Below are positions 55,539-60,210 of a stretch of 64,000 nucleotides of DNA, one piece after another. The notes below the pieces were generated by a model. That model worked only from the letters and a program-made list of their open reading frames with translations, did not search any database and was not told the DNA's origin. The DNA lies in contig NZ_BCYP01000006.1 of NCBI RefSeq assembly GCF_001598255.1, forward strand, positions 1 through 64,000, given 5' to 3'. The stretch comes from Mitsuaria chitosanitabida ATCC BAA-476 = NBRC 102408 (lineage in GTDB: Bacteria; Pseudomonadota; Gammaproteobacteria; Burkholderiales; Burkholderiaceae_C). Numbering within the stretch: the stretch's first letter is position 1; each line of letters begins with the position of its first letter. The position numbers and the translations under genes are program-made.

Positions 55539-56624
55539 ATGCAGGCCCTGCAGATCCTCGCCGGACCCAAGGCGCGCCAGCGGCTGCGCGACCACGGCCT
55601 GCGCGCCGCCGACGTGCGCGTCGTGCCCGGCGCGGCCGGCGGCCCCAAGGGGCTGATCCTCAGCGCGCTGGACGCGCACCTGTTCGGCGAGTTCCTCCCG
55701 TCCGGCGGGCACGAGGTCCACCTGCTGGGCGCCTCCATCGGCGCCTGGCGCATGGCCACCGCCTGCCTGACGCGCGACGCGGCCCAGGCCGACGCCGAGT
55801 TCCAGCGCCTGGCCCACGACTACGCCTGGCAGGACTACGAGTCCGAGCAGCCCGGCAAGCGTCCCAGCGCGGCGGTCGTGTCGCGCGCCTTCTCCGGCAA
55901 GCTGGGCGAGATCTTCGGCGGCCGAGAGGCCGAGGTGCTGTCGCATCCGCGGTTCCGGCTGCATGTGTTCACCTCGCGCGGCCGGCATGTGCTGGGCAGG
56001 GAAGGGCGGCTGCGCACGCCGCTGGGCTATCTCGGCGCCTTCGCCGCCAACGCGGTGTCGCGCCGGGCCATGGGCGCGTGGCTGGAACGGGTGGTGTTCT
56101 CCGACCAGCGTTCCCCGCTGCCCATGCCGCTGGGGGACTATCGCAGCCGGCAGGTCTCGCTGGACGCCGCCAACCTCAAGCCCAGCATCCTGGCGAGCTG
56201 CTCCATCCCGTTCTGGCTGCAGGCCGTGCACGACATCGAGGGCGCGCCCGCCGGCGCCTACTGGGACGGCGGCATCACCGACTACCACCTGCACCTGAAC
56301 TACGCGGCCATGGTGGGCGAGGGGATCGCGCTCTATCCGCACTTCCAGGCCAGCGTCGTGCCGGGCTGGCTGGACAAGGCGCTCAAGCATCGCCATCGCG
56401 CCAGCGCCTTCCTGGACAACGTCGTGCTGCTGACACCCAACCCCGAGTGGGTGAAGACGCTGCCCAACGGCAAGCTGCCCGACCGCAACGACTTCCAGCG
56501 CTACGTCGACGACGTGCCCGGCCGCGCCCGCGACTGGCTGCGCGCGGTCAAGGAGGGCGAGCGGCTGCGCGACGAGTTCCGCGAGGCCTGCGCCCGGCCG
56601 TCACTGGACGTTCAAACGCTGTGA
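55539..56624 (+). CDS. Patatin-like phospholipase
   Basis: A 361-residue patatin-fold hydrolase. The oxyanion loop is GAAGGPKG (31-38), the nucleophile elbow GASIG carries Ser66, and the catalytic Asp is D243 in YWDGGITDYHL. The Ser-Asp dyad is therefore complete. No signal peptide is present, so it may act on cytoplasmic lipids or be exported by another route. The stop lies about 50 bases before the thrS leader peptide. Confidence 0.88.
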   Translation: MQALQILAGPKARQRLRDHGLRAADVRVVPGAAGGPKGLILSALDAHLFGEFLPSGGHEVHLLGASIGAWRMATACLTRDAAQADAEFQRLAHDYAWQDYESEQPGKRPSAAVVSRAFSGKLGEIFGGREAEVLSHPRFRLHVFTSRGRHVLGREGRLRTPLGYLGAFAANAVSRRAMGAWLERVVFSDQRSPLPMPLGDYRSRQVSLDAANLKPSILASCSIPFWLQAVHDIEGAPAGAYWDGGITDYHLHLNYAAMVGEGIALYPHFQASVVPGWLDKALKHRHRASAFLDNVVLLTPNPEWVKTLPNGKLPDRNDFQRYVDDVPGRARDWLRAVKEGERLRDEFREACARPSLDVQTL

Positions 56625-56677
56625 GCTACACTCGACGCCTCATTTTTTCTTTTTCCAACAAGGACCGGGAAAGGCGA

Positions 56678-56722
56678 ATGGTTATGACACCGCGGACTAC
56701 GACCTCCCTCTGCAAGGTTTGA
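56678..56722 (+). CDS. thrS leader peptide (threonine attenuator)
   Basis: A 14-residue frame, MVMTPRTTTSLCKV, with GGGAAAGG upstream. Codons 4, 7, 8 and 9 are ACA, ACT, ACG and ACC, so all four threonine codons occur once. It ends 105 bases before thrS, and the intrinsic terminator lies between them. A possible promoter upstream is TGGACG (56605-56610) and TACACT (56627-56632) with a 16-base spacer. The frame is too short for statistical support. The case rests on threonine content, all four codons, the ribosome-binding site and the RNA structures that follow. Confidence 0.75.
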   Translation: MVMTPRTTTSLCKV

Positions 56723-56774
56723 GCGGCCGCGGCTCGTCACGTCTTTTCATCGCTGTCCGGAAAAAGTCAGCACC

Positions 56775-56816
56775 CCAGAAGAAGCGCGGCTAGTGGCCGC
56801 GCTTTTTGGTTTCTGG
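56775..56816 (+). terminator. Attenuator terminator before thrS
   Basis: Arms AAGCGCGGC (56782-56790) and GCCGCGCTT (56796-56804) with a 5-base loop and following T residues form an intrinsic terminator only 20 bases before the thrS ATG. An outer helix, CCAGAA (56775-56780) with TTCTGG (56811-56816), overlaps the first bases of the thrS ribosome-binding site GGAG (56815-56818). Upstream segment GCCGCG (56726-56731) can pair with CGCGGC (56785-56790) and so prevent the terminator. The same upstream segment can instead pair with CCGCGG (56690-56695) inside the leader codons. Confidence 0.8.
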
Positions 56817-56827
56817 AGCACACGCAC

Positions 56828-58753
56828 ATGTCCAACATCTCTATTCAACTGCCCGACGGTTCCAAGCGCGAGTTCCCGCAAGCGGTGACGGTCGCCGAGG
56901 TGGCCGCCTCCATCGGCACGGGCCTGGCCAAGGCCGCGCTGGCCGGCCGCGTCGGCTCGGGCGACAACGCCAAGCTGGTCGACACGAGCTTCCTGATCGA
57001 CCAGGACACGCAACTGGCCATCATCACGGACAAGGATCCCGACGGCCTGGAGGTGATCCGCCACTCGACGGCCCACTTGCTGGCCTACGCGGTCAAGGAG
57101 CTCTTCCCCGACGCCCAGGTCACGATCGGCCCGGTCATCGAGAACGGCTTCTACTACGACTTCTCCTACAAGCGCCCCTTCACGCCCGAGGACCTGGCCG
57201 CCATCGAGGCCAAGATGGCGGAGCTGGTGAAGAAGGACGAGAAGGTGACGCGCTCGGTGCTGCCGCGCGACGAGGCGGTCCAGTACTTCAAGGGCATCGG
57301 CGAGGCCTACAAGGCCGAGATCATCGAGAGCATCCCGGCGGATCAGGCGGTGTCGCTGTACGCCGAGGGCGGCTTCACGGACCTGTGCCGCGGCCCGCAC
57401 GTGCCATCGACGGGCAAGCTGAAGTTCTTCAAGCTGATGAAGGTGGCCGGCGCCTACTGGCGCGGCGATCACCGCAACGAGCAGCTGCAGCGCATTTACG
57501 GCACGGCCTGGGCGACGAAGGACGACCTGGCCAACTACCTGCGCATGCTGGAAGAGGCCGAGAAGCGCGACCACCGCAAGCTGGGCAAGGACCTGGAGCT
57601 GTTCCACATCGACGAGCACGCGCCCGGTGTGGTGTTCTGGCACCCCAAGGGCTGGACGGTGTGGCAGGAGGTCGAGCAGTACATGCGCCGCGTGTACCGC
57701 GACAACGGCTATCAGGAGGTCAAGGGTCCGCAGCTGCTCGACAAGACGCTGTGGGAAGCCACGGGCCACTGGGACAAGTACCGCGACAACATGTTCACGA
57801 CGGAGTCGGAGAAGCGTGATTACGCGCTCAAGCCGATGAACTGTCCCGGTCACATCCTGATCTTCAAGCATGGCATCAAGAGCTACCGCGACCTGCCGCT
57901 GCGCTTCGGCGAGTTCGGCCAGTGCCATCGCAACGAGCCCACGGGCGGCCTGCACGGCATCATGCGCGTGCGCGGCTTCACGCAGGACGACGGCCACATC
58001 TTCTGCACGGAAGACCAGATCCTGGCCGAGTGCGTCGCCTACACGGCGCTGCTGCAGAAGGTCTACAAGGACTTCGGCTTCGACAACATCATCTACAAGG
58101 TCGCGACGCGTCCCGATGCCCGCATCGGTTCCGACGAGGTCTGGGACAAGGCCGAGTTCGCGCTGATGGAGTCGCTGCGCGCCTCGGGCGTGGACTTCAT
58201 CATCGCCCCGGGCGACGGTGCCTTCTACGGCCCGAAGATCGAGTACACGCTCAAGGACGCCATCGGCCGCCAGTGGCAGTGCGGCACGATGCAGGTCGAT
58301 TTCTCGATGCCGGGCCGGCTCGGTGCCGAGTACGTCGGCGAGGATGGCGAGCGCAAGACGCCCGTCATGCTGCACCGCGCGATCGTGGGTTCGCTCGAGC
58401 GTTTCATCGGCATCCTGATCGAGCAGCACGCCGGCGCGCTGCCCGTTTGGCTGGCGCCGACGCAGGTCGTTGTCGCGAATATCACGGACGCCCAGGCGGA
58501 CTACGTTTCCGACATTGTGAAATCGCTGCAAAAACAAGGGCTTAGGGTCCAGGCAGATTTGCGCAATGAGAAGATCACGTATAAAATCCGCGAGCATTCG
58601 CTGCAGAAAGTGCCGTTCATCCTTGTCGTCGGCGACAAGGAAAAGGCGAACGGCGCGGTTGCAGTGCGCGCCCGAGGCAACCAGGATCTGGGCGTGATGT
58701 CGCTGGAGGACTTCGTTTCGAAGCTGTCTTCAGCCATCGCGGACAAGGCCTGA
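56828..58753 (+). CDS. thrS: Threonine--tRNA ligase
   Basis: A 641-residue class II synthetase. TGS domain (about 1-65), second additional domain with editing site (about 66-225, [17 protein letters not shown]), catalytic core (about 245-535) and anticodon-binding domain (about 540-641). Zinc ligands are C339 (MNCPGH), H390 (DDGHIFC) and H516 (MLHRAIVG), each five residues later than in E. coli. It heads the operon thrS-infC-rpmI-rplT. The upstream leader suggests control by threonyl-tRNA charging rather than, or in addition to, the translational autoregulation known in E. coli. Confidence 0.98.
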
Positions 58754-58821: not shown

Positions 58822-59370
58822 ATCGCTACTTTTGCTGACCGTCGTGCGATTCCGGAGCGCAAGCACCGCCTGAATCGCGAAATCATGGCTCCCGAAGTCC
58901 GTCTGAATGGCCCCGAGAACGAGCCCATCGGCATCGTATCGATCCAGGAAGCGCTCCGGATGGCCGGTGAGTTGGACGTCGATCTGGTTGAAATTGCCGC
59001 CACCGCAGTGCCGCCCGTGTGCCGCCTGATGGACTACGGCAAGTTCAAGTACCAGGAGCAGAAGCGCGCGGCGGAAGCCAAGTCCAAGCAGAAAGTCATC
59101 GAGGTCAAGGAAGTCAAGTTCCGTCCGGGTACGGACGAGGGCGACTACCAGATCAAGATGCGCAATCTGCGCCGCTTCATCGCGGAGGACGGCGACAAGG
59201 GCAAGGTCACGCTTCGCTATCGCGGCCGCGAGATCACCCACCAGGACATCGGCATGCGCATGCTGGAACGCATCCGCGACGAGCTGTCCGACGTGGCCGT
59301 GGTCGAGCACATGCCCAAGCTCGAGGGTCGCCAGATGATCATGGTGCTGGCACCGAAGAAGCGCACCTGA
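58822..59370 (+). CDS. infC: Translation initiation factor IF-3 with ATC start
   Basis: A 182-residue IF-3. The conserved N-terminus ([21 protein letters not shown]) is reached only by starting at ATC (58822), preceded by AGAGGTAA; the first in-frame ATG (58885) would remove the start of the N-domain. IF-3 rejects non-standard start codons, and a rare start on its own gene is the known autoregulatory device (AUU in E. coli). N-domain about 1-80 ([18 protein letters not shown]), linker, C-domain about 95-182. Lies 68 bases after thrS. Confidence 0.95.
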
Positions 59371-59516: not shown

Positions 59517-59720
59517 ATGCCCAAGATGAAGACCAAGAGCAGCGCGAAAAAGCGTTTTCGCGTTCGTCCGGGTGGCACCGTCAAGCGCGGTCAGGCGTTC
59601 AAGCGCCACATCCTGACCAAGAAGACCACGAAGAACAAGCGCCACCTGCGTGGCGCCACGACCGTGCATGAGACCAACATGGGCCACATCGCCGCGATGC
59701 TGCCCTCCGCTGGTCTGTAA
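59517..59720 (+). CDS. rpmI: 50S ribosomal protein L35
   Basis: A 67-residue, very basic L35. Hallmarks: [20 protein letters not shown] at the start, [16 protein letters not shown] in the middle, and a hydrophobic end. AAGGAGCAGTC precedes the ATG. It is followed after 26 bases by rplT. Confidence 0.97.
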
Positions 59721-59746: not shown

Positions 59747-60103
59747 ATGCCTCGCGTCAAACGTGGTGTAACCGCACGTGCTCGTCACAAGAAGGTCCTG
59801 GCTCTGGCCAAGGGCTTCCGTGGTCGTCGCAAGAACGTCTTCCGCATCGCCAAGCAGGCGGTGATGAAGGCGGGCCAGTACGCCTACCGTGACCGCCGTG
59901 CCAAGAAGCGCGTGTTCCGCCAGCTGTGGATTGCCCGTATCAACGCGGCAAGCCGTGGCCTGGGTCTGAGCTACAGCAAGTTCGTGGCCGGCCTGAAGAA
60001 GGCCCAGATCGACATCGACCGCAAGGTCCTGGCCGATCTCGCCGTCAACGATCCTGCTGGCTTTGCCAGCATCTTCGCCAAGGTGAAGGCCGCTCTGGCT
60101 TGA
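59747..60103 (+). CDS. rplT: 50S ribosomal protein L20
   Basis: A 118-residue L20 with the basic N-terminal tail ([20 protein letters not shown]) and the globular C-domain ([20 protein letters not shown]). L20 is needed for early 50S assembly and represses its own operon in several bacteria. AAGGAGATACAAC precedes the ATG. Last gene of the thrS transcript before a strong terminator. Confidence 0.98.
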
Positions 60104-60177: not shown

Positions 60178-60210
60178 AAAGGCCGACACCTTGGTGTTCG
60201 GCCTTTTTTC
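60178..60210 (+). terminator. Intrinsic terminator after rplT
   Basis: Arms AAAGGCCGA and TTCGGCCTTT with an inner CACC/GGTG pair form a strong stem (60178-60207) followed by a T run to 60210. It lies 75 bases after rplT and 79 before pheS, so pheS-pheT-ihfA needs its own promoter or read-through. Confidence 0.85.

Follow-up and report, generated by a model that had tools for sequence, protein, structure and literature searches.

A putative threonine leader-peptide attenuator upstream of thrS in Mitsuaria chitosanitabida and its relatives

The textbook cases of thrS control are translational operator mimicry in Escherichia coli and T-boxes in Firmicutes. Here, a short leader upstream of thrS was analyzed in a 64,000-bp stretch of Mitsuaria chitosanitabida ATCC BAA-476 (contig NZ_BCYP01000006.1, positions 1–64,000; this whole stretch is called the window), and its sequence, compared with that of relatives, argues strongly for transcription attenuation in which the translating ribosome responds to the charging of tRNA-Thr. 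The E. coli operator also controls thrS by the status of threonyl-tRNA synthetase (ThrRS) and tRNA-Thr, but it does so by translational repression, with ThrRS acting on a tRNA-like RNA and with no leader-peptide attenuation. The thrS T-box of Firmicutes also works by antitermination on uncharged tRNA-Thr, but no ribosome is involved there. Like the present locus, the thr operon attenuator of enterobacteria (thrABC; Rfam RF00506) has a Thr-codon leader peptide, hairpins that exclude one another and an intrinsic terminator, but it serves biosynthesis instead of a synthetase gene and has a long Thr/Ile run instead of 2–9 Thr codons. The E. coli pheST attenuator (pheM), located in a thrS-infC-rpmI-rplT-pheM-pheST neighbourhood, also controls an operon for an aminoacyl-tRNA synthetase by way of a leader peptide, but it senses Phe and acts on pheST; no Phe leader was seen by eye between rplT and pheS in the window. 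The present element appears to belong with the leader-peptide attenuators, on a gene for which the proteobacterial textbook mechanism is a different one.

A match to the element at the gathering score was not obtained in an Rfam scan of the window, and a permissive search gave weak ones only. The Thr_leader family (RF00506) was not matched in the own genome at E ≤ 0.001, in a search that detected it in five of the 14 control genomes, one of which was E. coli. A T-box was neither matched in the window at gathering nor found among the four permissive matches to 56600–56850. No proteobacterial Thr leader on thrS was found in the literature searched, from which subscription papers were largely absent. 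In the actinobacterium Streptomyces lividans, thrL, a leader peptide containing two Thr, was predicted upstream of thrS; its open reading frame (ORF) is transcribed leaderless, its peptide (MKRVRPFLETTPGFVPAR) differs from the present one and a clear intrinsic terminator was not found by the authors (PMC8079986). A preliminary description of the locus had named no earlier account of such an element in Burkholderiales; this agrees with Rfam and with the proteobacterial literature searched, but a Thr leader on thrS is not new in itself.

Layout of the leader and its threonine codons

Direct reading of 56678–56722 gave ATG GTT ATG ACA CCG CGG ACT ACG ACC TCC CTC TGC AAG GTT TGA, with CCGCGG at 56690–56695 and GCCGCG at 56726–56731. 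The terminator is a GC-rich hairpin (stem 56780–56806, arms 56780–56791 and 56795–56806) followed by the U-tract TTTTTGGTTT from 56803, and the coordinates that had been proposed for leader, pairing segments and terminator were correct (Table 1). With ample Thr-tRNA, a ribosome would reach the leader stop and cover segment 2, and the terminator (3:4) would form before thrS. With scarce Thr-tRNA, the ribosome would stall at Thr codon 2, 5, 6 or 7 and cover segment 1; the stall would free segment 2 for pairing with the terminator 5′ arm (2:3), and the polymerase would enter thrS. In an untranslated leader, a long hairpin consisting of 1:2 and of an outer helix sequestering the Shine-Dalgarno (SD) sequence of the leader would hold segment 2, with termination as the default. 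Such a switch probably raises thrS expression when Thr-charged tRNA falls.

Codons were counted in 119 leaders, all distinct and near relatives included, from 144 upstream regions. A core of at least 16 of 21 with the ATG was present in 121 regions, among which L074 and L093 were then without a terminator. The preliminary description had proposed a 14-codon leader starting at ATG 56678; its frame was confirmed, but the codon at this position (−6) is ATG in just 28 of the 119 leaders, that is, not conserved. The leader is therefore most likely the 12-codon frame from ATG 56684, which is common to the leaders, with the caveat that the search patterns demanded that ATG, and its SD would be the one listed in Table 1.

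Thr was found at codon 5 in 119/119 leaders, at codon 2 in 112/119, at codon 6 in 75/119 and at codon 7 in 43/119. After codon 5, it made up 211 of 1015 in-frame codons (21%), whereas its share was 1.7% (15/896) and 3.6% (32/896) when the frame was shifted. The element contains a short, translated-looking ORF that is enriched in codons for Thr, the amino acid to which the downstream synthetase gene corresponds. The number of Thr codons per leader ranged from 2 to 9. All four kinds, which are present in the window, were found in 30/119 leaders, and 28/119 had just two Thr codons, so that reading of every Thr isoacceptor, as had been proposed from the window, is not a general design.

Distribution among relatives and alternative pairings

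The leader core was found in 62 of 81 thrS loci (the window and its 80 nearest relatives). A covariance model (R1) was built from 53 of these 62 leaders (alignment A1), with L009, L014, L021, L024, L029, L038, L049, L050 and L074 excluded because of unusual geometry or a truncated 5′ end. In the family, 155 of 200 genomes were matched by R1 at E ≤ 1e-6. In the order, 123 of 399 were matched at E ≤ 0.01, the weaker ones certainly including chance matches. The 52 best order places, the window's own included, were all located upstream of thrS, and thrS was downstream in 64 of the best 70; it was missing at L138, L144, L145, L148, L150 and L153, the last being a 520-base contig end. In the class sample, R1 gave matches in 4/369 genomes at E ≤ 1e-4, which were the own genome, two family members and one outsider (L156). 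The outsider locus lacks thrS, and there is therefore no evidence for the element outside the order. An exact-pattern search of the class sample gave 20/369, including the own genome and two family members; these were mostly chance by appearance.

Thirty genomes from 29 families with a weak match or none were read by eye, and in six of them (L157, L165, L171, L172, L178, and L183) thrS was judged to be preceded by a leader containing Thr and by a terminator. L157 carries a core variant (MTPLTY) and the other five are unlike the core. L167 and L181 were doubtful, and no Thr leader was seen by eye in the best ORFs listed for the remaining 22. Other Thr leaders before thrS in genomes without a strong match include MQRTSTKTITYLG, MFKRTTTTRISR and MQLNRTTTTS. 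Judged by eye, the sensed amino acid would stay the same where such a Thr leader occurs, though the sequence differs. Many close and some distant relatives appear to carry the same switch. In four loci labelled Limnohabitans (L051, L060, L072, and L078), a GCGCGG hairpin with a T-run was observed close 5′ of thrS, without a leader core.

An intrinsic terminator is predicted downstream of the leader ORF and upstream of thrS: of the 121 leaders with the core, 118 reached a terminator score of at least 25 and two were without a hairpin, compared with 11 of 238 shuffles reaching that score. A helix over the thrS ribosome-binding site had also been suggested. A stem that would also cover the thrS SD passed a simple screen in 10/119 leaders, and its CCAGA/TCTGG form was present in five, the window and the near relatives L004, L005, L006 and L011; this helix is local.

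In the fold of the window, the outer helix (56649–56676 with 56740–56766) is made up of the pairs CTTTTTCC/GGAAAAAG, GGAC/GTCC and GGGAAAGGCG/CGTCTTTTC. The window alone was barely above chance (fold z −1.7; 2:3 duplex p = 0.04 and 1:2 duplex p = 0.10, 100 shuffles), and significance therefore rests on comparison with relatives. Covariation was poor in A1 because of the misalignment of segment 2 and because segments 1 and 3 hardly vary; therefore, duplex energies with permuted partners were used instead. For 93 representatives, cognate partners were better than permuted ones for 1:2 (z −3.6), 2:3 (z −4.0) and 3:4 (z −17) as well as for the outer helix (26 of 2000 permutations did equally well; z −2.3), in permutations that ignore relatedness. 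The control pairs showed no cognate gain (upstream strand with segment 3, z +3.2; upstream strand with segment 4, z +0.4; 1:3, z +1.7). For the helix between leader and post-stop sequence, 32 and 48 of 20,000 permutations were as good for two variants of the 5′ side, among 19 sequences from 14 families that were chosen by hand, with the terminator of L165 delimited wrongly. Some lineages have other sequences that still complement each other, for example AGAGGAACAAGAAT/AGTTCTTGTTTCTT in L142. The segment 2 footprints for 1:2 and 2:3 overlapped by at least 4 nt in 56 of 60 relatives (the 62 leaders without L050 and L074), against a shuffle mean of 4.4 nt. Mutually exclusive 1:2, 2:3 and 3:4 pairings are thus predicted at the population level, though many sequences, and also the window, show them only weakly when taken alone. 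As the preliminary description had supposed for a Thr leader-peptide attenuator on thrS, both the Thr codons and the stems are kept in relatives, with own partners superior to swapped ones.

Ribosome states were modelled for 117 of the 119 leaders. When the ribosome was placed at Thr5, opening the terminator 5′ arm cost 6.3 kcal/mol on average; the cost was 4.6 when it was placed at the stop and 2.4 when it was absent, and the corresponding values for shuffles were 4.9, 4.6 and 4.1 kcal/mol. The stalled and the no-ribosome states depart from the shuffles in the direction that the attenuator model wants. In the window, masking of everything up to 56708 gave 2:3, and addition of segment 4 gave the terminator. 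The mean unpaired probability of segment 3 in 119 sequences changed as expected, from 0.14 at the stall to 0.31 at the stop and 0.35 without a ribosome. It was lower at the stall than at the stop by more than 0.3 in 28/119 sequences and the reverse was found in none, but only 17 combined a stall value < 0.4 with a stop value > 0.6, as a strict criterion would ask; this signal is blurred because GCGC self-pairs.

A number of observations weigh against this attenuator, besides the leaders with two Thr codons and the neglect of relatedness in the permutations. Among the nearest loci, 19/81 had no strict core, L030, L063 and L083 with a changed or decayed one, and a CGCG-type hairpin was retained in 16 of these 19. 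The window's own pairings are marginal, and p ≤ 0.05 was reached in only 19/60 (1:2) and 20/60 (2:3) of the single sequences. The cognate partner ranked near the bottom for L104, L126 and L178 (for L178 in one variant), and RNAalifold on the MAFFT alignment A1 gave the terminator and a small near-invariant hairpin only, without 1:2. In the modelled states, the stop costs the same as in shuffles, and the stall exceeded the stop by at least 3 in only 35/117 sequences, with 28/117 and 21/117 significant singly. The opening costs of the window (stall 5.9, stop 8.4, none 4.2) place the stall below the stop, unlike the average order, and its no-ribosome and stalled folds were no better than shuffles (z +0.8 and +1.7).

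The conserved start-codon block and rival explanations

A block of 19 nt from −4 to +15 of the leader was shown to be near-frozen (1.3–2.0 bits per position, with a sharp fall outside; 118 of the 119 leaders) at the nucleotide level, third and synonymous codon positions included. Positions −4 to −2 are GGU or CGU in 117/118 leaders, the exception being L149; these are the same letters as those of two Thr anticodons. Pairing of segment 1 covers roughly +7 to +14 and does not account for the GTT before the ATG or for ATGACA. Conservation of the block is partly inflated because leaders were selected on a core of at least 16 of 21 with the ATG required. The admitted deviants MTPLTT, MRPPTT and MVPPTT retain most of GTTATG...CCGC..ACT.

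The 3′ edge of the frozen block falls at the end of the footprint of an initiating ribosome. An unlikely reading of the block is a start-codon-gated attenuator, with Thr codon 2, at the first elongation step, as the main sensor and Thr5 as the second. Segment 1 would then already be masked by the ribosome waiting at the start codon, and initiation would be gated by the outer helix, which spans the leader SD; in the boldest version, there would be a putative ThrRS contact at GGU/CGU just 5′ of the start codon. If this were true, the switch could read initiation and Thr-tRNA supply, tying initiation factor 3 (IF-3), L35 and L20 to both. The frozen block is a concrete puzzle over an additional role of the RNA.

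The same block also bears on autoregulation by ThrRS, in which the leader RNA would bind ThrRS at the block and the ORF would be secondary or merely modulating. This we regard as very unlikely, although the freezing of 19 nt with their synonymous positions is more than 1:2 pairing requires, the anticodon letters lie next to the start codon in all but one leader, and self-regulation of E. coli ThrRS is mentioned in a published report (PMC2965389). Such a model does not require the in-frame Thr enrichment after codon 5 or an intrinsic terminator, and some other lineages have Thr-rich ORFs without the block. Around GGU, no stem resembling an anticodon arm with a 7-nt loop was seen by eye in the folds, which were not searched for it specifically; anticodon-arm mimicry was rejected as the main mechanism for lack of such a visible stem.

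Very little credence is given to a terminator that is constitutive or otherwise controlled, with the upstream ORF serving as an arrest peptide (MTPRT) or as a growth-rate gate and no sensing of threonine. Conservation is higher for MTPRT than for the Thr codons that follow it, and several relatives retain the terminator without the leader, which would suit this explanation. However, Thr is enriched in a frame-specific manner to 21% of the codons after the fifth, the 52 best order places are linked to thrS and elsewhere other Thr-rich peptides replace MTPRT. Besides, known arrest peptides have their critical residues towards the C-terminal end, whereas this end is variable here. Almost no credence is given to release of the terminated thrS leader as a separate small RNA with targets in trans. 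In its favour, the nearest Rfam match, at 56726–56811, is to the Burkholderia small RNA ncS025 (RF02869), although it is sub-threshold at 19 bits against a gathering score of 46 (E 0.27). Identity with ncS025 was rejected because NcS25 is located between BCAL3007 and BCAL3008, away from thrS (PMC10117139); the present element keeps its place at thrS.

Neighbouring features and implications

Table 1. Positions of the leader, its predicted pairing segments and the neighbouring genes in the window.
Feature	Position	Strand	Basis or remark
Possible −10 element TACACT	56627..56632	+	Weak; best −10-like match, 57 nt 5′ of leader ATG
Outer helix 5′ strand, with leader SD GGGAAAGG (56667–56674)	56649..56676	+	Predicted fold
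Near-invariant block around leader start, G or C followed by GTTATGACACCGCGAACT; window version GGTTATGACACCGCGGACT	56680..56698	+	118 leaders
Thr leader peptide ORF MTPRTTTSLCKV, then stop	56684..56722	+	Conservation, in-frame Thr; upstream in-frame ATG 56678 also possible
Segment 1 CCGCGGAC, inside leader, pairs with segment 2	56690..56697	+	
Segment 2 GCGGCCGCGGCTC, directly after leader stop, partner of segment 1 or 3	56723..56735	+	
Outer helix 3′ strand	56740..56766	+	Window fold and partner test
Segment 3, terminator 5′ arm AGAAGCGCGGCT	56780..56791	+	
Segment 4, terminator 3′ arm and U-tract GGCCGCGCTTTTTGGTTT	56795..56812	+	
thrS SD region CTGGAG	56813..56818	+	CCAGA/TCTGG terminator-stem extension could cover it
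thrS, threonyl-tRNA synthetase, 641 aa	56828..58753	+	ORF list and protein matches
infC (IF-3), probable ATC start	58822..59370	+	Sequence reading; tblastn in relatives
rpmI	59517..59720	+	Translation
rplT	59747..60103	+	Translation

The gene that we take to be thrS from its family encodes a product 96–97% identical to records labelled Roseateles and Rubrivivax. TACACT would place the transcription start near 56639, and the best −10-like match lies at −48 to −50 in 34/118 leaders; a consensus scan of the window listed no promoter and, on the + strand, no terminator. A tRNA-Val (GAC) gene was observed upstream of thrS, on the same strand, in 7/7 loci: L158, L160 and L174–L176, picked for tRNA-like sequence there, and L165 and L172, added for comparison, in which it occurs together with a Thr leader.

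The names infC, rpmI and rplT are presumed, the latter two from the sequences of L35 and L20. The apparent ATC start of infC lies behind GAGGTAACCACC, whereas the ORF list starts it at ATG 58885; IF-3 of E. coli has the non-standard start AUU. A strong hairpin with a T-run (AAAGGCCGACACCTTGGTGTTCGGCCTTTTTT, by eye) at 60178–60209, between rplT and pheS, may end the thrS-rplT transcript. By tblastn, 77 of 80 relatives have infC downstream of thrS in the same orientation, and the other three loci end too soon. From this gene order, control by the attenuator may extend to infC, rpmI and rplT, and read-through could therefore raise IF-3, L35 and L20.

Whether the levels of IF-3, L35 and L20 are set by threonine charging becomes a testable question. 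The finding also adds an element that is without an Rfam match, can be found with one model and flags an easily overlooked short gene. A large neighbouring lineage appears to use leader-peptide attenuation for the same thrS problem.

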